DNA of 64,000 bases, from the NCBI GenBank assembly GCA_014763665.1, contig JACXUY010000003.1, positions 1 through 64,000 of the forward strand, read 5' to 3'. The DNA comes from Gammaproteobacteria bacterium (lineage in GTDB: Bacteria > Pseudomonadota > Gammaproteobacteria > Thiomicrospirales > Thiomicrospiraceae). A model generated the notes under the pieces. That model was not told the origin of the DNA. It saw nothing but the letters and a program-made list of their open reading frames with translations, and made no database searches. The position numbers and the translations under genes are program-made. Position 1 is the stretch's first letter. Every line of letters begins with the position of its first letter. Shown here piece after piece: positions 13,353 through 64,000 of the stretch.

Positions 13353-13379
13353 TTTCATCCATGTCAAAATGTTCAACTT

Positions 13380-13394
13380 TGGCACATTAACTGC
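13380..13394 (+). promoter_or_regulatory. Sigma-54 type promoter of the Cache-CheW gene
   Basis: TGGCACATTAACTGC keeps the invariant GG and GC separated by 10 bases and matches the sigma-54 consensus at all but two of its non-N positions. It starts 28 bases after the SulP stop and about 90 bases before the Cache-CheW start. This suggests co-regulation with the sigma-54 flagellar units on the right of the window. Confidence 0.65.
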
Positions 13395-13420
13395 TCAATT
13401 CTTATGAAAATTAAGATTAG

Positions 13421-13473
13421 CAGCACCAAAAACACTTTATTGAACCAAAATAAAACAAAAACAGCACCAAAAA
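13421..13473 (+). repeat. Direct repeat in the leader of the Cache-CheW gene
   Basis: The 12-mer CAGCACCAAAAA occurs at 13421-13432 and again at 13462-13473, 41 bases apart. The second copy runs into the Shine-Dalgarno sequence (AAGGGA) of the following gene. Both lie downstream of the sigma-54 element, so within the mRNA leader. Confidence 0.5.
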
Positions 13474-13482
13474 GGGAATATC

Positions 13483-15960
13483 ATGGAGTATAAAGGGCTA
13501 AAACTGGACGAACGTCTCGCTCACCTAATCCGTTACATGCCCGATGTTGATGATCTAAGGGAAACGATTGGCCGCTACCAAGCAGTATGGGACAATCTCG
13601 CTTTGCTAGGTCAACTCTCAGGCGTAGGCAATGAAATGGGTAGTACGAGGGAGTCATTTTTTAAACTCAGTGAGTCCCTTGTAAACCACCTTGGTAATGA
13701 ATATTGGCAAGAGCTCAATCAGCGTTTATCGATGAAGGCCAGTGTTGCAACCGACATGATGCAACGCAACCTGTTTGAACGAACTGCAGATATTGGCTTT
13801 TTAGCCACTGATCAAACCATCATTAATTTTCTCAAACAACCAGATAGCTTTTCCACCACCACGTTGAGCGAGCACCTAGAATCTTACCGAGCTAATTACA
13901 GTGTCTACCATGACATCATTTTGTTAGACTGCACTGGTAACGTGTTGTTTCGACTCCATCCCAACGCTGTTGAAAGCAGTCAGGATGAGCTCATCAAAAC
14001 GGCACTGAACACCAATGAACCCTATGTTGAAGTATTCCGCAAATGTGATTTACTGCCGCAATTAACGAACGCGCACATCTATGCTTACCGAGTTCAAGAT
14101 AGCATGGGAAGCGTCTTGGGTGTACTCTGTCTGTGTTTTAACTTCCAAGATGAATGCCAGCGCATTTTTAAAGAGCTTAATGATGGTGATTGGTCTATCA
14201 TCAGCTTAACCGACACCTCAGGTAAAGTGATTGCCAGCAGTGATGAGCAACAACTCCCTATTGGCACTCAAGTAACCCATCATACCAAAGCAATGAAGAT
14301 TGAGCGGTTAGCAGGCCGAAAATATCTTGTCAGCAGTCGAGAAGGAAAGGGTTATCAAGGTTATACCGGACAAAGTTGGTTGGGTCATGTAATGATCCCC
14401 ATCGACTTTGCTTTTGAACGTAACAAACAACCTAGTCTTGAACTTAACAATCTGCAAGGATTGGACATTTTTTCGCCCGAATTAATGAGCATTCCCACAC
14501 AAGCCGATCGCATCCAGGTGAACTTAAATCGTTCTGTTTGGAATGGCAGTCTGCACCAACACCTCGGACAAGGTGAAACCCTGTTTTCGCGCGCTTTGTT
14601 GTGGGAAATCAGTCAAACGGGACTAAAAACCAAAGCCTTATTGGCTGATGCTATCGAGAACTTGTATCAAACGGTCATTGGCGCCACACTCGCCAATAAC
14701 CGCTTCTTGGCCTCTCTGGCTGTTAATATCAAAGATCGGAATTTATACGAACGCGCCAACGATTGTCGCTGGTGGTCACTCACCGCATGTTTTAGAGAAG
14801 CACTAGCCCAAAGCTCAATCAGTGCTGAAGTGGTTCAAGAGCTAAACGCGACTTTGGCTTATATTAATCGACTTTACACGGTTTATACCGGCATTATGCT
14901 TTACGATAAATCAGGCATAGTGGTCGCGGTGTCGCAAGCCCACTTAACGGAATGGATTGACAAACCGATCAATGAGTCGTGGGTCAGCAAAAGCCTAGCG
15001 CTGAGATCCAGTCATGAATATGTAATTTCAGACTTTAGCGCTACCCCACTTTACGATAATCGACCCACCTACATCTATGCAGCAGCGGTGATGCATCCGA
15101 CACAAACACAGCAGGTCGTTGGTGGTATTGCACTCATCTTTGACAGCTTGCCTCAATTCACCAATATGTTACAAGAGGCGCAACCAACGAATGAACAATT
15201 TAACAGTTTTTCCGTCTTTTTTGATGAACAAAATAATGTGATTGCCAGCACTCACCGTCATTTTCAATCCGCTAAACCTCTACCTGTTGACCTAAGTAAT
15301 TTGTTAGAACAAGGCTATGGGATTGTAGATTGCAATGATGGACGTTATGCAGTGGGTATCGCTAAGGCATCAGGCTATCGTGAATACCCTGCAACTACCA
15401 ATGGTAAATCGACCTACACTGCCCTGTTCACTCGCATTGGCGATAATCTCTCTAATCAACAGTTGACTCAACCCAAAGTCTTCTCAAGTCGCCCCATACC
15501 AAAACAGACCATTACCGATGCTAATCCCATCAGCATCGCTACTTTTTTCATTGCTGATCAACATTATGGTTTGCCTGTCGATGCCATTATTGAGGCAGTA
15601 GATGTGTCCTTAATGCGCCAGGGTATTCCAAGTGAAGATGCATCCTTTATCGGATTTGTTTCTCATCAACAGCGTGTTATTCCAGTAATATCACCAGTGC
15701 GTTGGCTGGGAAGAGACGTAGATATGACGCAAGCGCAACTGCTTATAATCCAGCATGATTTCATTCGATTTGCCTTGATGGTGGATCAACTTGGCCACAT
15801 TCAGCATTTAACAGCGGAGCAAATCATGCCCTCGCCCAGTAACATTGGTCAAGGTTTGATCCAAGGCTTAATCAATATTGGTAAAGATGATGATGATGTT
15901 ATTTTGCTGTTATCAATCGATGTCATGGTTCAGAGTTTAACCGCTAAACCTACTTACTGA
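13483..15960 (+). CDS. Soluble tandem sensor (Cache-like) protein with C-terminal CheW domain
   Basis: This 825-residue protein has no signal peptide or membrane helix. Two alpha/beta sensor regions, about residues 65-320 and 385-610, each contain Cache/PAS-like strands (IILLDCTGNVLFRLHP, IMLYDKSGIVVAVSQ, VVGGIALIFDS). The C-terminal 140 residues form a CheW fold (FFIADQHYGLPVDAIIEAVD, GFVSHQQRVIPVISPVRWLG). There is no methyl-accepting signalling hairpin. It could bind CheA directly through the CheW domain and bring cytoplasmic ligand or redox state into the chemotaxis array. The start has AAGGGA eight bases upstream. The 3' end overlaps the convergent lipoprotein gene by seven bases. Confidence 0.75.
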   Translation: MEYKGLKLDERLAHLIRYMPDVDDLRETIGRYQAVWDNLALLGQLSGVGNEMGSTRESFFKLSESLVNHLGNEYWQELNQRLSMKASVATDMMQRNLFERTADIGFLATDQTIINFLKQPDSFSTTTLSEHLESYRANYSVYHDIILLDCTGNVLFRLHPNAVESSQDELIKTALNTNEPYVEVFRKCDLLPQLTNAHIYAYRVQDSMGSVLGVLCLCFNFQDECQRIFKELNDGDWSIISLTDTSGKVIASSDEQQLPIGTQVTHHTKAMKIERLAGRKYLVSSREGKGYQGYTGQSWLGHVMIPIDFAFERNKQPSLELNNLQGLDIFSPELMSIPTQADRIQVNLNRSVWNGSLHQHLGQGETLFSRALLWEISQTGLKTKALLADAIENLYQTVIGATLANNRFLASLAVNIKDRNLYERANDCRWWSLTACFREALAQSSISAEVVQELNATLAYINRLYTVYTGIMLYDKSGIVVAVSQAHLTEWIDKPINESWVSKSLALRSSHEYVISDFSATPLYDNRPTYIYAAAVMHPTQTQQVVGGIALIFDSLPQFTNMLQEAQPTNEQFNSFSVFFDEQNNVIASTHRHFQSAKPLPVDLSNLLEQGYGIVDCNDGRYAVGIAKASGYREYPATTNGKSTYTALFTRIGDNLSNQQLTQPKVFSSRPIPKQTITDANPISIATFFIADQHYGLPVDAIIEAVDVSLMRQGIPSEDASFIGFVSHQQRVIPVISPVRWLGRDVDMTQAQLLIIQHDFIRFALMVDQLGHIQHLTAEQIMPSPSNIGQGLIQGLINIGKDDDDVILLLSIDVMVQSLTAKPTY

Positions 15961-16250: not shown

Positions 16251-17456
16251 ATGGAAAACAATTCGCTACCCGTTCAAGACGTTTTATTCTTACTAATCGG
16301 CGCTGTCATGGTACTGGCCATGCATGCAGGATTTGCCTTTTTAGAAGTAGGCACGGTTCGTCAAAAAAACCAAGTGAACGCTTTGGTTAAAATTTTGGCT
16401 GATTTAGCTGTCTCGACACTCGCCTACTTTTTTATCGGTTATACGCTCGCTTATGGTTCTCATTTTTTAATGAATGATCAGGCACTATCTGTTGACGCTG
16501 GTTATGCCTTAGTGAAATTTTTCTTTCTCATGACCTTTGCTGCTGCCATTCCAGCAATTGTTTCGGGCGGGATTGCTGAACGGGCCAAGTTTAATCCTCA
16601 ATTAGCAGCAACCTTCGCTATAGTCGGTTTTGTCTATCCCTTTTTTGAAGGTATTGCTTGGAATGGTAATTTTGGTATTCAAGCTTGGTTGGTCACCACT
16701 TTTGGTGCTCAATTTCACGACTTTGCCGGTTCAGTTGTAGTTCATGCCGTGGGTGGCTGGATTGCTCTCGCCGCTGTACTCCACCTTGGCGCACGTCGCG
16801 GACGCTACACCAAAGAAGGTCTAGTATCAGCTCATCCGCCATCAAATATTCCCTTTTTAGCACTCGGCTCGTGGATTTTAATTGTTGGCTGGTTCGGCTT
16901 TAACGTCATGTCGGCGCAGAAACTCGAAGCCATTAGCGGATTGGTTGCCTTAAACTCACTCATGGCAATGGTCGGAGGCAGCTTAGCAGCATTGATTGTT
17001 GGAAAAAACGACCCCGGCTTTGCTTATAACGGACCACTTGCCGGTCTGGTAGCCATTTGTGCAGGTTCAGATATTGTCCACCCAATGGGTGCGCTCGCTA
17101 TAGGCACCATAGCTGGCGCTATGTTTGTCACTCTGTTCACCTTAACGCAAAATAAATGGAAAATCGATGACGTGCTAGGCGTATGGCCACTACACGGACT
17201 TTGTGGAGCTTTTGGCGCACTGGCAGCAGGCATTTTTGGGCTTGAAAGCTTAGGTGGCATGGGTGGTGTGTCGCTCATTTCACAAATCATCGGTACGTTA
17301 ATCGGTATTAGTATTGCGTTTACAGGTGGATACTTAGTCTATGGTTTGCTAAAGTTAGTGGTCGGCATTCGCTTAAGCGATGAAGAAGAATATGATGGTG
17401 CTGATATGACCATTCACCGAATCACGGCCACTCCCGATCGTGAAACACGTTGGTAA
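16251..17456 (+). CDS. amt: Ammonium transporter Amt
   Basis: The 401-residue protein has 11 predicted membrane helices and the Amt/Rh signature, including FLEVGTVRQKN, the channel histidine pair His165 (VVVHAVGG) and His315 (PLHGLCGA), and the phenylalanine gate region FPFFEGIAW-like (YPFFEGIAW). It conducts ammonium into the cytoplasm. There is no N-terminal signal peptide and no glnK gene beside it, and I see no sigma-54 site upstream, so nitrogen control is not evident from local sequence. Confidence 0.93.
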   Translation: MENNSLPVQDVLFLLIGAVMVLAMHAGFAFLEVGTVRQKNQVNALVKILADLAVSTLAYFFIGYTLAYGSHFLMNDQALSVDAGYALVKFFFLMTFAAAIPAIVSGGIAERAKFNPQLAATFAIVGFVYPFFEGIAWNGNFGIQAWLVTTFGAQFHDFAGSVVVHAVGGWIALAAVLHLGARRGRYTKEGLVSAHPPSNIPFLALGSWILIVGWFGFNVMSAQKLEAISGLVALNSLMAMVGGSLAALIVGKNDPGFAYNGPLAGLVAICAGSDIVHPMGALAIGTIAGAMFVTLFTLTQNKWKIDDVLGVWPLHGLCGAFGALAAGIFGLESLGGMGGVSLISQIIGTLIGISIAFTGGYLVYGLLKLVVGIRLSDEEEYDGADMTIHRITATPDRETRW

Positions 17457-37782: not shown

Positions 37783-39765
37783 TTAAAACCTGTTCATCAT
37801 ACCGGGCAAATCGAGAATGAGGGCAATGCGACCATCCCCTGTGATGGTGGCACCTGCATAACCTTGCACTCCTTGTAATTTAGCACCTAGCGGTTTAATC
37901 ACCACTTCTTCCTGACCACGAACTTGATCTACAATCAATCCCACCATGACTGTACCAATATTTACAATCACCACTTTGGCATGATCTAAAGGCTCATGAC
38001 TGGTATGAGAGGACAACCAATCTCTCATAAAATACAATGGGATACTGCGTGAACGTAAACGCACCATCATGCGTCCGTCAATACGATTGCTCTGAATAGG
38101 ATCGTAGTCAAAAATTTCCTGCACCGCTGTGAGTGGAATAGCATAATTAAACTCACCCACTCCCACCATCAGCGTCGGTAAAATAGCCAAGGTTAACGGA
38201 ACACGAATATTAAAAATCGTACCCTCACCCAACACAGAATGAATATCAATGCTACCATTCAGCTTGTTGATGGTGCTCTTCACCACATCCATACCAACAC
38301 CACGCCCCGAAACATCGGAAATTTCAGTTTTGGTAGAGAATCCAGGTAACAAAATTAACTCGAATGCGGCTTTATCATCCAGCTGTGCCGCTGTCATTTC
38401 GTCAATCAAGCCCTTTTCAACGGCCTTTTGCCGTAACACGTCCGCATTCATACCCTTACCATCATCGGTAATGGTTAAGAGAATATGATCTCCCTCTTGT
38501 TGCGCAGACAGGATGAGCTTACCCACACGCGGCTTACCCTGACTTTCACGGGTTTGAGGGTCTTCCACACCATGGTCAACCGCATTGCGTACCAAATGCA
38601 CCAACGGATCAGCCAAGGCTTCGACGAGATTCTTATCTAAATCGGTATCTTCACCCTCAAGCTCCAGCTCAATTTCTTTGCCAAGCTTGCGAGCCAAATC
38701 ACGAACCACTCGCGGAAAACGGCTAAACACCTTTTTAACGGGTTGCATACGCGTCTTCATCACCGACGCTTGCAAATCCATAGTGACATGATCTAGGTTA
38801 GCAACAACTGCAGACACTTCCTCGTTTTGCAGTAAGGTGCGCAAATTCAGCAAGCGATTACGTACCAACACCAACTCACCAACCAGATTCATAATCTCAT
38901 CGAGTCGCTTGGTATCCACACGCACAGTCGATTCAGCCTCTTCACTGGCTTTGGCCACAACAGCCGTTTTATTAGTCGGTTTCGCTGCGGGTACTGGCGC
39001 CGACTTCACAGGTTCAGTGACTACCGGTGGAGCAGTAACTGGGGGAGCTGGTGGCGAATCGACTAAAACGCCTACCGCTTTGGCGGCATCTAAAGCAGCT
39101 TCTTGCGCAGATTTGCCCGACTGCAAACCAGCCAACATGGCCTCAAATTCTTCGTCTGTAATTTCGCCATCGGGATCTAAACCAGCAACAAAAGGCGATT
39201 CAGGAGCTGTTGTTGGTGCCGTTACTTGTGCCGATTTTGCCAGCATGTCGCGCTGATTGAGTAACGCTTCAAATTCTTCATCAGAAATCTCACCATCAGG
39301 GTCCACGCCTTCTGGTAAAGTCAGTTTAATGGCAGGAGCGGTGACAACTTCAACAGGCGCATCCATTTCAACTGATGAGCTCATTTCACCTTTCACGGCA
39401 GCATCCAACTCAGCTAACAAACGGGCATCGGCAGCTTCAAGCTCACGCTCACCCGCTTGTAATGCTTGAATCATGCGACCGATCACATCATAGGCTTGCA
39501 GAACCACATCAACGTTGCCGCCCGCATACTCGCGTTCGCCATTACGAATTTTATCGAACAAGTTTTCGGCACGGTGACACAATTCAACTAATGGGGTGAC
39601 ACCAATGAAACCCGCACCCCCTTTGATGGTATGAAAACCACGAAAAATAGCATTCAACAAATCGGTATTATGTGGATCGCGCTCCAGCTCTACCAGCTGT
39701 TCATTTAGGTTTTCGTAAAGCTCACCCGCTTCTACCAAAAAGTCTTGTAAAATTTCCTCGTCCAC
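37783..39765 (-). CDS. cheA: Chemotaxis histidine kinase CheA
   Basis: CheA phosphorylates CheY and CheB. The 660-residue protein has an Hpt domain with His45 (GFHTIKGGAGF), a long linker (about 125-285), dimerisation domain (RLDEIMNLVGELVLVRNRL), the kinase core (N box LVRNAVDHGVED, ITDDGKGMN, GVGMDVV) and a CheW-like P5 domain. The linker carries two copies of the acidic motif DPDGEI-S/T-DEEFEA about 45 residues apart; no clear P2 domain is seen. Start is GTG 39765 with AGGAG eight bases upstream. A sigma-54 element lies upstream at 39856. Confidence 0.95.
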   Translation of the reverse strand: MDEEILQDFLVEAGELYENLNEQLVELERDPHNTDLLNAIFRGFHTIKGGAGFIGVTPLVELCHRAENLFDKIRNGEREYAGGNVDVVLQAYDVIGRMIQALQAGERELEAADARLLAELDAAVKGEMSSSVEMDAPVEVVTAPAIKLTLPEGVDPDGEISDEEFEALLNQRDMLAKSAQVTAPTTAPESPFVAGLDPDGEITDEEFEAMLAGLQSGKSAQEAALDAAKAVGVLVDSPPAPPVTAPPVVTEPVKSAPVPAAKPTNKTAVVAKASEEAESTVRVDTKRLDEIMNLVGELVLVRNRLLNLRTLLQNEEVSAVVANLDHVTMDLQASVMKTRMQPVKKVFSRFPRVVRDLARKLGKEIELELEGEDTDLDKNLVEALADPLVHLVRNAVDHGVEDPQTRESQGKPRVGKLILSAQQEGDHILLTITDDGKGMNADVLRQKAVEKGLIDEMTAAQLDDKAAFELILLPGFSTKTEISDVSGRGVGMDVVKSTINKLNGSIDIHSVLGEGTIFNIRVPLTLAILPTLMVGVGEFNYAIPLTAVQEIFDYDPIQSNRIDGRMMVRLRSRSIPLYFMRDWLSSHTSHEPLDHAKVVIVNIGTVMVGLIVDQVRGQEEVVIKPLGAKLQGVQGYAGATITGDGRIALILDLPGMMNRF

Positions 39766-61709: not shown

Positions 61710-63068
61710 TTAATCGACATCATAACCAGCATCACGTAATTTAGCCAGCTTATATCTTAACGTACGTGGACTCATTTGCAACACCTCTGCTGTGCGCGCC
61801 CGATTACCCGCCTGAAGCTTCAGAGTTGACAGGATTAACTTGATCTCTTGTTCCTTCAAATCTTGCATCACCACTGGCTCGCTTAAACCACCTTCAACAA
61901 TTACATCGGTCGATGTTTCGCTTTCCTTAACATCTAGCCACAAGCTACGTGCATCTAGCAAAATATCCTCTGCTGTAATCCATTCTCCCGCTTGCAAAAC
62001 CATGGCACGTTGCAAAACATTATCCAACTCACGAATATTACCTTGCCAATGATAACTTATCAGACGCTCTTTCGCTTCATCCGTTAAGCTTGGTATAACC
62101 TGAGTACCAGCGTAATGACGCGCTATTAATCGCTCAGCAATGGGAATAATATCCAGCGGTCTTTCTCGCAATGGCGCTAAATGTAACGGAAATACATTCA
62201 AACGATAGTAAAGATCTTCACGAAACTTATGCGTTTTAATCGCTTGCTCAAAGTTAATATTGGTCGCTGATAACACCCTTACATCTAAGGCAATCGGTTT
62301 GTCGCTACCTAAACGCTCTACTTCTCTTTCTTGCAGCACACGCAATAATTTACTCTGCAAGTCAATGTTCATTTCACCAATTTCATCCAGAAACAAGGTT
62401 CCTTTCTGCGCTTGTTCGAATTTACCTGGCATAGATTTAACTGCCCCCGTAAAAGCTCCTTTTTCATAACCAAACAGGGTCGCTTCTAACATGGTTTCTG
62501 GAATCGCTGCGCAGTTAATGGCAATAAAAGGACCCTGAGCTCGCCCCGATTGTTGGTGCAAATAGCGCGCTAATACTTCTTTTCCCGTACCACTTTCGCC
62601 GGTAATCATGACACTGGCATCAGATGCCGCAACTTTTTGTGCTAATCGTTTAATTTTTTGTGTTTGCGCGTCTACGGCGACAAAATCATCTTCACTTGAG
62701 GCATCGAAATTAAGATAACGTTGCGCTTTTTCCAGCAGTAAACTGGCCTCAAAAGGCTTAACAATGTAATCAACAGCACCGTCTTTCATGGCAGACACAG
62801 CCTGCTCAATGGTGCCATAAGCGGTCATTAACACAACAGGCAAATGCGGTTTCAGCGCACGCAAGCGTTGCAATAAAGCATAGCCATCCATACCATCCAT
62901 ACGAATATCGCTAAATACCAAGCTGATTTCTTCTTCACCTAGCACTGCTAAGGCACTTAAGCCATTATCAACCGACAAAACCTCAAAATCACCCAGCTGC
63001 AAGGTGTCAACAATGGCTTCTCGTAAAGCGCTGTCGTCTTCGACCACCAAAATTCGACCCAAACTCAT
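61710..63068 (-). CDS. flrC: Sigma-54-dependent flagellar response regulator FlrC (FleR)
   Basis: FlrC activates sigma-54 promoters of flagellar genes after phosphorylation by FlrB. The 452-residue protein has a receiver (VVEDDSALREA, phospho-Asp in VFSDIRMDGMDG), an AAA+ domain with Walker A GESGTGKEVLARY, the sigma-54-contact loop GAFTGA, Walker B FLDEIGEM, and a Fis-type helix-turn-helix (NRARTAEVLQMSPRTLRYKL). ATG 63068 overlaps flrB by 4 bases and has GGAGGAAG upstream; a longer frame to 63101 is unlikely. Confidence 0.95.
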   Translation of the reverse strand: MSLGRILVVEDDSALREAIVDTLQLGDFEVLSVDNGLSALAVLGEEEISLVFSDIRMDGMDGYALLQRLRALKPHLPVVLMTAYGTIEQAVSAMKDGAVDYIVKPFEASLLLEKAQRYLNFDASSEDDFVAVDAQTQKIKRLAQKVAASDASVMITGESGTGKEVLARYLHQQSGRAQGPFIAINCAAIPETMLEATLFGYEKGAFTGAVKSMPGKFEQAQKGTLFLDEIGEMNIDLQSKLLRVLQEREVERLGSDKPIALDVRVLSATNINFEQAIKTHKFREDLYYRLNVFPLHLAPLRERPLDIIPIAERLIARHYAGTQVIPSLTDEAKERLISYHWQGNIRELDNVLQRAMVLQAGEWITAEDILLDARSLWLDVKESETSTDVIVEGGLSEPVVMQDLKEQEIKLILSTLKLQAGNRARTAEVLQMSPRTLRYKLAKLRDAGYDVD

Positions 63069-64000
63069 TCTACTTCCTCCCATTTGGGTAACCAAATACA
63101 AAATTCTGCTCCTTGACCCAACTGCGAGTTCACAGTTACCCGCCCATGATGCGCTTGTACAACAGCACGCGTAACCGCCAAGCCTAAACCCGTACCTTGA
63201 GCGCGACTGGTATAAAAAGGTTCAAAAATTTTTTCATGTAACCCGCTGTCAATCCCTGGACCTTCATCGCGCACACAAACCTTAATCCAATCTCCTTGAA
63301 TCTGCGCATAAAGATGAATGCGTGCATTCGTTTTGACCACATCAATCGCGTTCATGACCAAACTCTGCACTGCCGTTATTAAGGCGTCAATATCGCCTTG
63401 CACGGCTTGACCCTCTAGCCAGGACTCAACATGCAACTGGCTATGACTGGATTGCAAAGCCGCTTCACAAACTTGGATAACCTGTTGCAACCAATCATTG
63501 ACCAAAATACGACTACTGCCACCCTGCCCACCCTTCGCATATTGCAACATATCCGTCACTAGGTGTTCTAAGTGTCGCAAACGCGCCAAGATTTTGTCAC
63601 TCATTTGTACCCGTTTATCTTCACTGATATTCGGCAAAGATAATTGTGACGCATAGAGTAACGCTGCAGCCAAAGGGGTTCGAATTTGATGCGCTAAAGA
63701 GGCAGCCATTTCCCCCATACTACGCAGCCGTTGATGTTGACTTAACTGGCTGGCTAGCGTGCGTTGTTCGGTCACATCCATCAAGAGTACGATTTTGCCC
63801 AATGCCTTGTCTAATGGGGTTTCCGACACATTTAAGATACGCTGATCGGGTAATAGCCAATCTCCAGCGACCTCGCTGCGCACGCCGACAGATGACAAAA
63901 CCTGTTGCCAATATTGACCTTGCAAAGGTACTGACAACCACTGTTGCGCCGTCGCATTGACTTCGGTAATTTTACCCATTTGATCTAAGACTAAAACCGC
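63065..64000 (-). CDS. flrB: Flagellar sensor histidine kinase FlrB (FleS), 5' end outside window
   Basis: The frame is open to the right edge (AVLVLDQMGKITEVN), so the start lies beyond 64000. Visible are a PAS-like domain (about the first 90 residues shown), a HisKA box (MGEMAASLAHQIRTPLAAALLYASQL, with the phospho-His) and an ATPase domain (MNAIDVVKT; VRDEGPGID; FEPFYTSRAQGTGLGLAV). There is no membrane helix in the visible part, matching soluble FlrB/FleS. It partners the adjacent flrC through an ATGA overlap. Confidence 0.92.
   Translation of the reverse strand, partial: AVLVLDQMGKITEVNATAQQWLSVPLQGQYWQQVLSSVGVRSEVAGDWLLPDQRILNVSETPLDKALGKIVLLMDVTEQRTLASQLSQHQRLRSMGEMAASLAHQIRTPLAAALLYASQLSLPNISEDKRVQMSDKILARLRHLEHLVTDMLQYAKGGQGGSSRILVNDWLQQVIQVCEAALQSSHSQLHVESWLEGQAVQGDIDALITAVQSLVMNAIDVVKTNARIHLYAQIQGDWIKVCVRDEGPGIDSGLHEKIFEPFYTSRAQGTGLGLAVTRAVVQAHHGRVTVNSQLGQGAEFCIWLPKWEEVE

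Follow-up and report, generated by a model that had tools for sequence, protein, structure and literature searches.

A soluble twin-dCache protein with its own CheW-like domain, a candidate receptor-free input to the chemotaxis array of a gammaproteobacterium

A gammaproteobacterium of the Thiomicrospiraceae encodes a soluble protein of 825 aa in which two dCache sensor domains are followed by a C-terminal CheW-like domain. We propose, with a probability of roughly 0.55, that this protein provides a receptor-free, direct input to the chemosensory array, a cytoplasmic twin-dCache sensor being docked there by its own CheW-like domain. As a soluble twin sensor that carries a CheW domain and has a conserved sigma-54 promoter, it may inform the chemotaxis machinery about conditions inside the cell without an ordinary receptor. 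The sensor would be co-expressed with flagellar and chemotaxis genes, its CheW-like domain would occupy a CheW-type position beside CheA-P5 or CheW, and a ligand in the dCache domains would alter kinase activity directly, so that the input would need no receptor hairpin. That this input is “metabolic,” as an earlier note on this DNA suggested, is a guess. The gene lies in the window, by which we mean the whole stretch of 64,000 nucleotides that was analyzed (contig JACXUY010000003.1); its features are as follows.

13379..13395, + strand: sigma-54 (-24/-12) element TTGGCACATTAACTGCT, with correct GG-N10-GC spacing, 104 bp before the ATG
13483..15960, + strand: whole gene of the soluble tandem-dCache-CheW protein (825-aa ORF; Pfam; relatives)
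13483..13731, + strand: N-terminal helical segment, residues 1-83, in the hairpin position of unit 1 (the relatives' unit 1/unit 2 alignment takes it in; helices in a low-confidence model)
13732..14436, + strand: predicted dCache domain 1, residues 84-318 (PF02743, AlphaFold2 model, Foldseek dCache matches)
14455..14700, + strand: inter-unit segment, residues 325-406, with an xVWNGx motif (aligned to the MCP tip in single-unit proteins and to LNG[KQ]I in CheW-less ones)
14701..15447, + strand: predicted dCache domain 2, residues 407-655 (homologous to unit 1 as well as single-unit dCache proteins; weak Cache_WalK match)
15541..15936, + strand: CheW-like domain, residues 687-818 (PF01584; PDB CheW matches; SHQQ instead of NLRG)
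37786-39765: CheA

Pfam places CheW at residues 687-818 with 59.4 bits (cut-off, 23.5), dCache_1 at residues 106-284 with 45.6 bits, barely above the cut-off of 45, and a weak Cache match at residues 468-549. The protein has no membrane helix, its highest hydropathy over 19 residues being 1.32, and no Pfam match to the MCP signaling domain (PF00015) was obtained at E values up to 10. Unit 1 was modeled with AlphaFold2 (pLDDT 71.6; pTM 0.68) from an alignment of six rows, to which three proteins contributed two units each, and the model displays the long N-terminal helix and the two PAS-like modules of the dCache fold. When this model was compared with solved dCache domains using Foldseek, it matched PctA (E 1.6e-9) and DctB (TM up to 0.69), the PDB dCache matches having TM scores of 0.6-0.69. 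Unit 2 is homologous to unit 1 and to single-unit relatives, and on the strength of this homology and of the unit 1 model, both Cache/PAS-like regions are most likely complete dCache domains. The two regions, the lack of a membrane helix, and the C-terminal CheW domain had been read correctly in the earlier note. Structure prediction of the N-terminal part, which had been suggested as a check, yielded a dCache sensor fold for unit 1, whereas a whole-protein AlphaFold2 model built from three sequences reached a pLDDT of 35 and was set aside. The fold of unit 1 argues for array input. Cache domains are mostly extracellular (78% extracytoplasmic [PMC4822843]), a location that is usual, though not universal, for dCache and that a protein devoid of membrane helices does not share; two Cache domains within one soluble protein are unusual. 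No ligand motif was identified, which we count against array input.

Relatives of the sensor are present in about two-thirds of the sampled genomes of the window's taxonomic family, whose nearest named records are Thiotrichales MAGs. In all but two genera of this family, the relative is about 670 aa long and ends after dCache 2 with a conserved tail; CheW fusion is confined to two genera there, that of the window and one other. When the search was widened to the class, it yielded three more CheW-less proteins and one more fused protein; at the level of the phylum, five further fused proteins appeared, one of which belongs to another class. In all, the CheW-fused set comprises 10 proteins, which represent five families and two classes. 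No relatives were found in phages. CheW scores above the Pfam cut-off in four of the five phylum-wide fused proteins, and that of the fifth (G783) is too diverged. The latter counts against array input, for which the CheW domain of the window protein, also retained in fused proteins of four further families and above the cut-off in all but one, otherwise speaks. A branch with support of 98/92 separates the ten fused proteins from all others in a 41-protein tree, a further point in favor of array input; by this tree, the CheW-fused form is one lineage. The occurrence of CheW in 45 of the 46 sampled genomes of the family (the window's genome excluded) likewise fits array input; the sole genome without CheW also lacks the sensor.

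In the CheW-less proteins, a 278-column alignment relates unit 1 to unit 2 (E 1.3e-13). Each of the two units also matches soluble single-unit proteins about 340-400 aa long (E 6.6e-21 and 8.5e-26). In a tree of the separate units, the first units form one group and the second units another, each with support of 100/99; therefore, one duplication or fusion predates the split between fused and CheW-less proteins. As judged from sequence, the family goes back to a duplicated [hairpin + dCache] unit. Neither the 41-protein tree nor the tree of separate units gives a direction for CheW gain versus CheW loss. The soluble receptors of about 340-400 aa (L041, L062-L065, and L096-L109) have an N-terminal MCP tip and a C-terminal dCache domain, which is the reverse of the usual order, and several of them are unannotated in plasmid records. 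The 670-aa soluble tandem-dCache proteins (L042-L060), found in most genomes of the family, have no output domain.

A receptor signaling hairpin is absent from the present sequence, as the earlier note claimed, but the inter-unit segment sits where relatives have an MCP-tip-like hairpin. In the alignment with the MCP tip, the stretch preceding unit 2 places LNG[KQ]I of the CheW-less proteins opposite LNAxIE; in the fused form, this stretch has diverged, and its motif is VWNG. With rich profiles, none of 50 tip shuffles matched the real inter-unit segment, whether the CheW-less set or all members pooled were used. The fused set by itself gave 18 of 50 shuffles as good as the real segment, making its tip likeness nonsignificant, and with a poorer profile, the shuffle test was not significant. 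Hairpin regions alone gave no signal with the organism's own MCPs, and their profile comparison was not significant. Because of the shuffle outcomes, we consider the segment of the CheW-less form a probable MCP tip relic and infer the same for the fused form. It is conceivable that the segment is still a working hairpin, in which case the fused protein would be a receptor with a tethered CheW, like a covalent receptor-CheW complex. Such an arrangement would accord with the tip-like segment retained by the CheW-less relatives and with the same register in which the fused form aligns, but the shuffle result for the fused form alone and the missing MCPsignal match render it quite improbable. Input to the array through the CheW-like domain is, in turn, consistent with descent from soluble receptors that have a true MCP tip.

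Canonical CheW has a conserved Arg62/Gly63 pair within the motif NLRG. This pair is absent from all nine fused CheW domains that were aligned (the window protein has SHQQ for NLRG); therefore, they are not ordinary CheWs, and the loss counts against array input. The Glu38 equivalent is retained in six of the nine, including the window protein (E in IIEAV, residue 704). The interface-2 positions of Escherichia coli CheW, R117 and F122 (PMC5181776), vary among the organism's own CheWs too. In E. coli, CheW substitutions near Arg62 weaken CheA binding, and R62A leaves the affinity for both partners intact and impairs chemotaxis (PMC3828127). Given the Arg62/Gly63 loss, the Glu38 retention, and the E. 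coli mutants, docking of the fused CheW-like domain in the array appears plausible, and ordinary coupling by it appears doubtful. The domain might dock without signaling and dilute or break CheA-CheW rings, thereby tuning the size or sensitivity of the array; a domain lacking Arg62/Gly63, as all nine aligned ones do, could resemble R62A in this respect. We consider this role unlikely, as every fused member has two dCache domains, which suggests sensing. Sensory input to the array also has a precedent in CheWS of Treponema (PMC10653840).

The sigma-54 element TTGGCACATTAACTGCT has the highest score of the 64-kb window, both strands included, with a position weight matrix whose weights approximate the published consensus and were made for this analysis; 0.2 such scores are expected by chance. 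It differs from TGGCAC-N5-TTGC by one mismatch. Upstream sigma-54 elements of at least 11 bits were found for 20 of 40 relatives and, once near-copies were removed, for 15 of 26 members; among 104 control genes whose upstream regions are intergenic, 2 had such an element (p 5e-11). In the window's genome, elements of this kind lie upstream of cheA, three small soluble MCP genes, a FliK gene, and a FliE-sized gene, and most membrane MCP genes have none. The genome encodes rpoN (sigma-54), and an NtrC/FlbD-like activator, presumably FlrC, is encoded at 61713-63101, adjoining flagellar fliF and fliG, about 46-48 kb from the sensor gene. The family-wide elements, their co-occurrence before cheA, FliK, and MCP genes, the activator, and rpoN together support the assignment of the sensor gene to a sigma-54 flagellar/chemotaxis regulon. 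The strong sigma-54 element of the earlier note is borne out, its distance of 48 kb from flrC fits the presumed FlrC gene, and the flagellar regulon suggested there is supported; the elements shared with cheA, fliK, the FliE-sized gene, and the soluble MCPs are in line with array input.

CheW-type domains number 11 in this genome; they are spread over several clusters and include those of a triple-CheW protein, and the sensor could conceivably feed a non-flagellar chemosensory pathway, e.g., a type IV pilus or alternative-function pathway. Such a destination seems improbable, since the sigma-54 element is common to the window's cheA and flagellar genes and the NtrC/FlbD-like activator is located within the flagellar cluster. 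The gene for the triple-CheW protein (about 532 aa; L120 700-2298) has a sigma-54-like element 57 bp upstream.

Around the sensor genes, no conserved che-gene neighborhood was found, a point against array input, and no conserved operon partner was found among the relatives. EAL/GGDEF and MCP genes recur irregularly near sensor genes; EAL or GGDEF-EAL genes lie beside or near the sensor in L045, L048, L050, L052, L060, and L061, the window's genus included. In the window, amtB is located directly downstream (16251-17456), and in an unrelated fused locus of G753, amtB (L126 9932-11248) is three genes away from the sensor; this proximity in two unrelated fused loci was not counted as evidence. 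A GGDEF domain is fused to an ammonium transporter in L052 (1306-3153). The fused gene of G276 is adjoined by soxX-, soxA-, soxZ-, and soxY-like genes (L131 7569-9875), as judged by eye.

Tentatively, and at less than even odds, these data can be extended to a second route to the array: soluble minimal receptors would have been duplicated into one chain, one lineage would have swapped the hairpin for an altered CheW, and intracellular dCache ligands would act on CheA via the coupling protein. The family hints at how a minimal soluble receptor could evolve into a receptor-free input. Being conserved in proteobacteria, with two intracellular dCache domains, a chemotaxis-type promoter, and CheW-fused as well as CheW-less forms, it would allow a direct test of whether a ligand can act on CheA by way of CheW when no receptor is involved.

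The first CheW-fused sensor to be characterized, according to its authors, and the only characterized one named in the literature consulted, is CheWS of the spirochete Treponema denticola, which reportedly binds CheA and is anchored within the array; its authors list further uncharacterized CheW architectures, including PAS and CZB fusions (PMC10653840). CheWS and the 825-aa protein share the fusion of CheW to a sensor domain without a receptor, and the latter likewise combines sensor and CheW in one soluble chain. CheWS has a C-terminal CheR-like SAM-binding domain, whereas the 825-aa protein has two dCache domains and then a C-terminal CheW; no CheR match indicative of such a sensor was obtained with Pfam or NCBIfam, and there is no evidence of common descent of the two proteins outside the CheW domain. 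CheV, too, is a CheW fused to another domain, but that domain is a receiver, which Pfam did not find beside CheW in the 825-aa protein. The chemoreceptors PctA, Mlp24, and TlpC have the dCache fold in common with it, but there the domain is extracytoplasmic, on membrane receptors with a signaling hairpin. The single-unit soluble receptors of Methylobacterium, Caballeronia, and others share with the 825-aa protein the same dCache (motif RNLYER..D..WWATD), solubility, and the hairpin-then-dCache order, and differ by having one unit, a genuine MCP tip, and no CheW. The CheW-less 670-aa proteins have two units and the same kind of sigma-54 promoter, but possess the conserved tail GDGYxNDVIALVxTGI after dCache 2 and LNG[KQ]I in place of VWNG. 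The twin-dCache-CheW architecture may have been listed earlier without study, for example by Vass et al. 2023, reportedly a census of CheW-like domains. The 825-aa protein is a CheW-fused sensor, a known kind; what sets it apart is the use of two dCache domains as the sensor.
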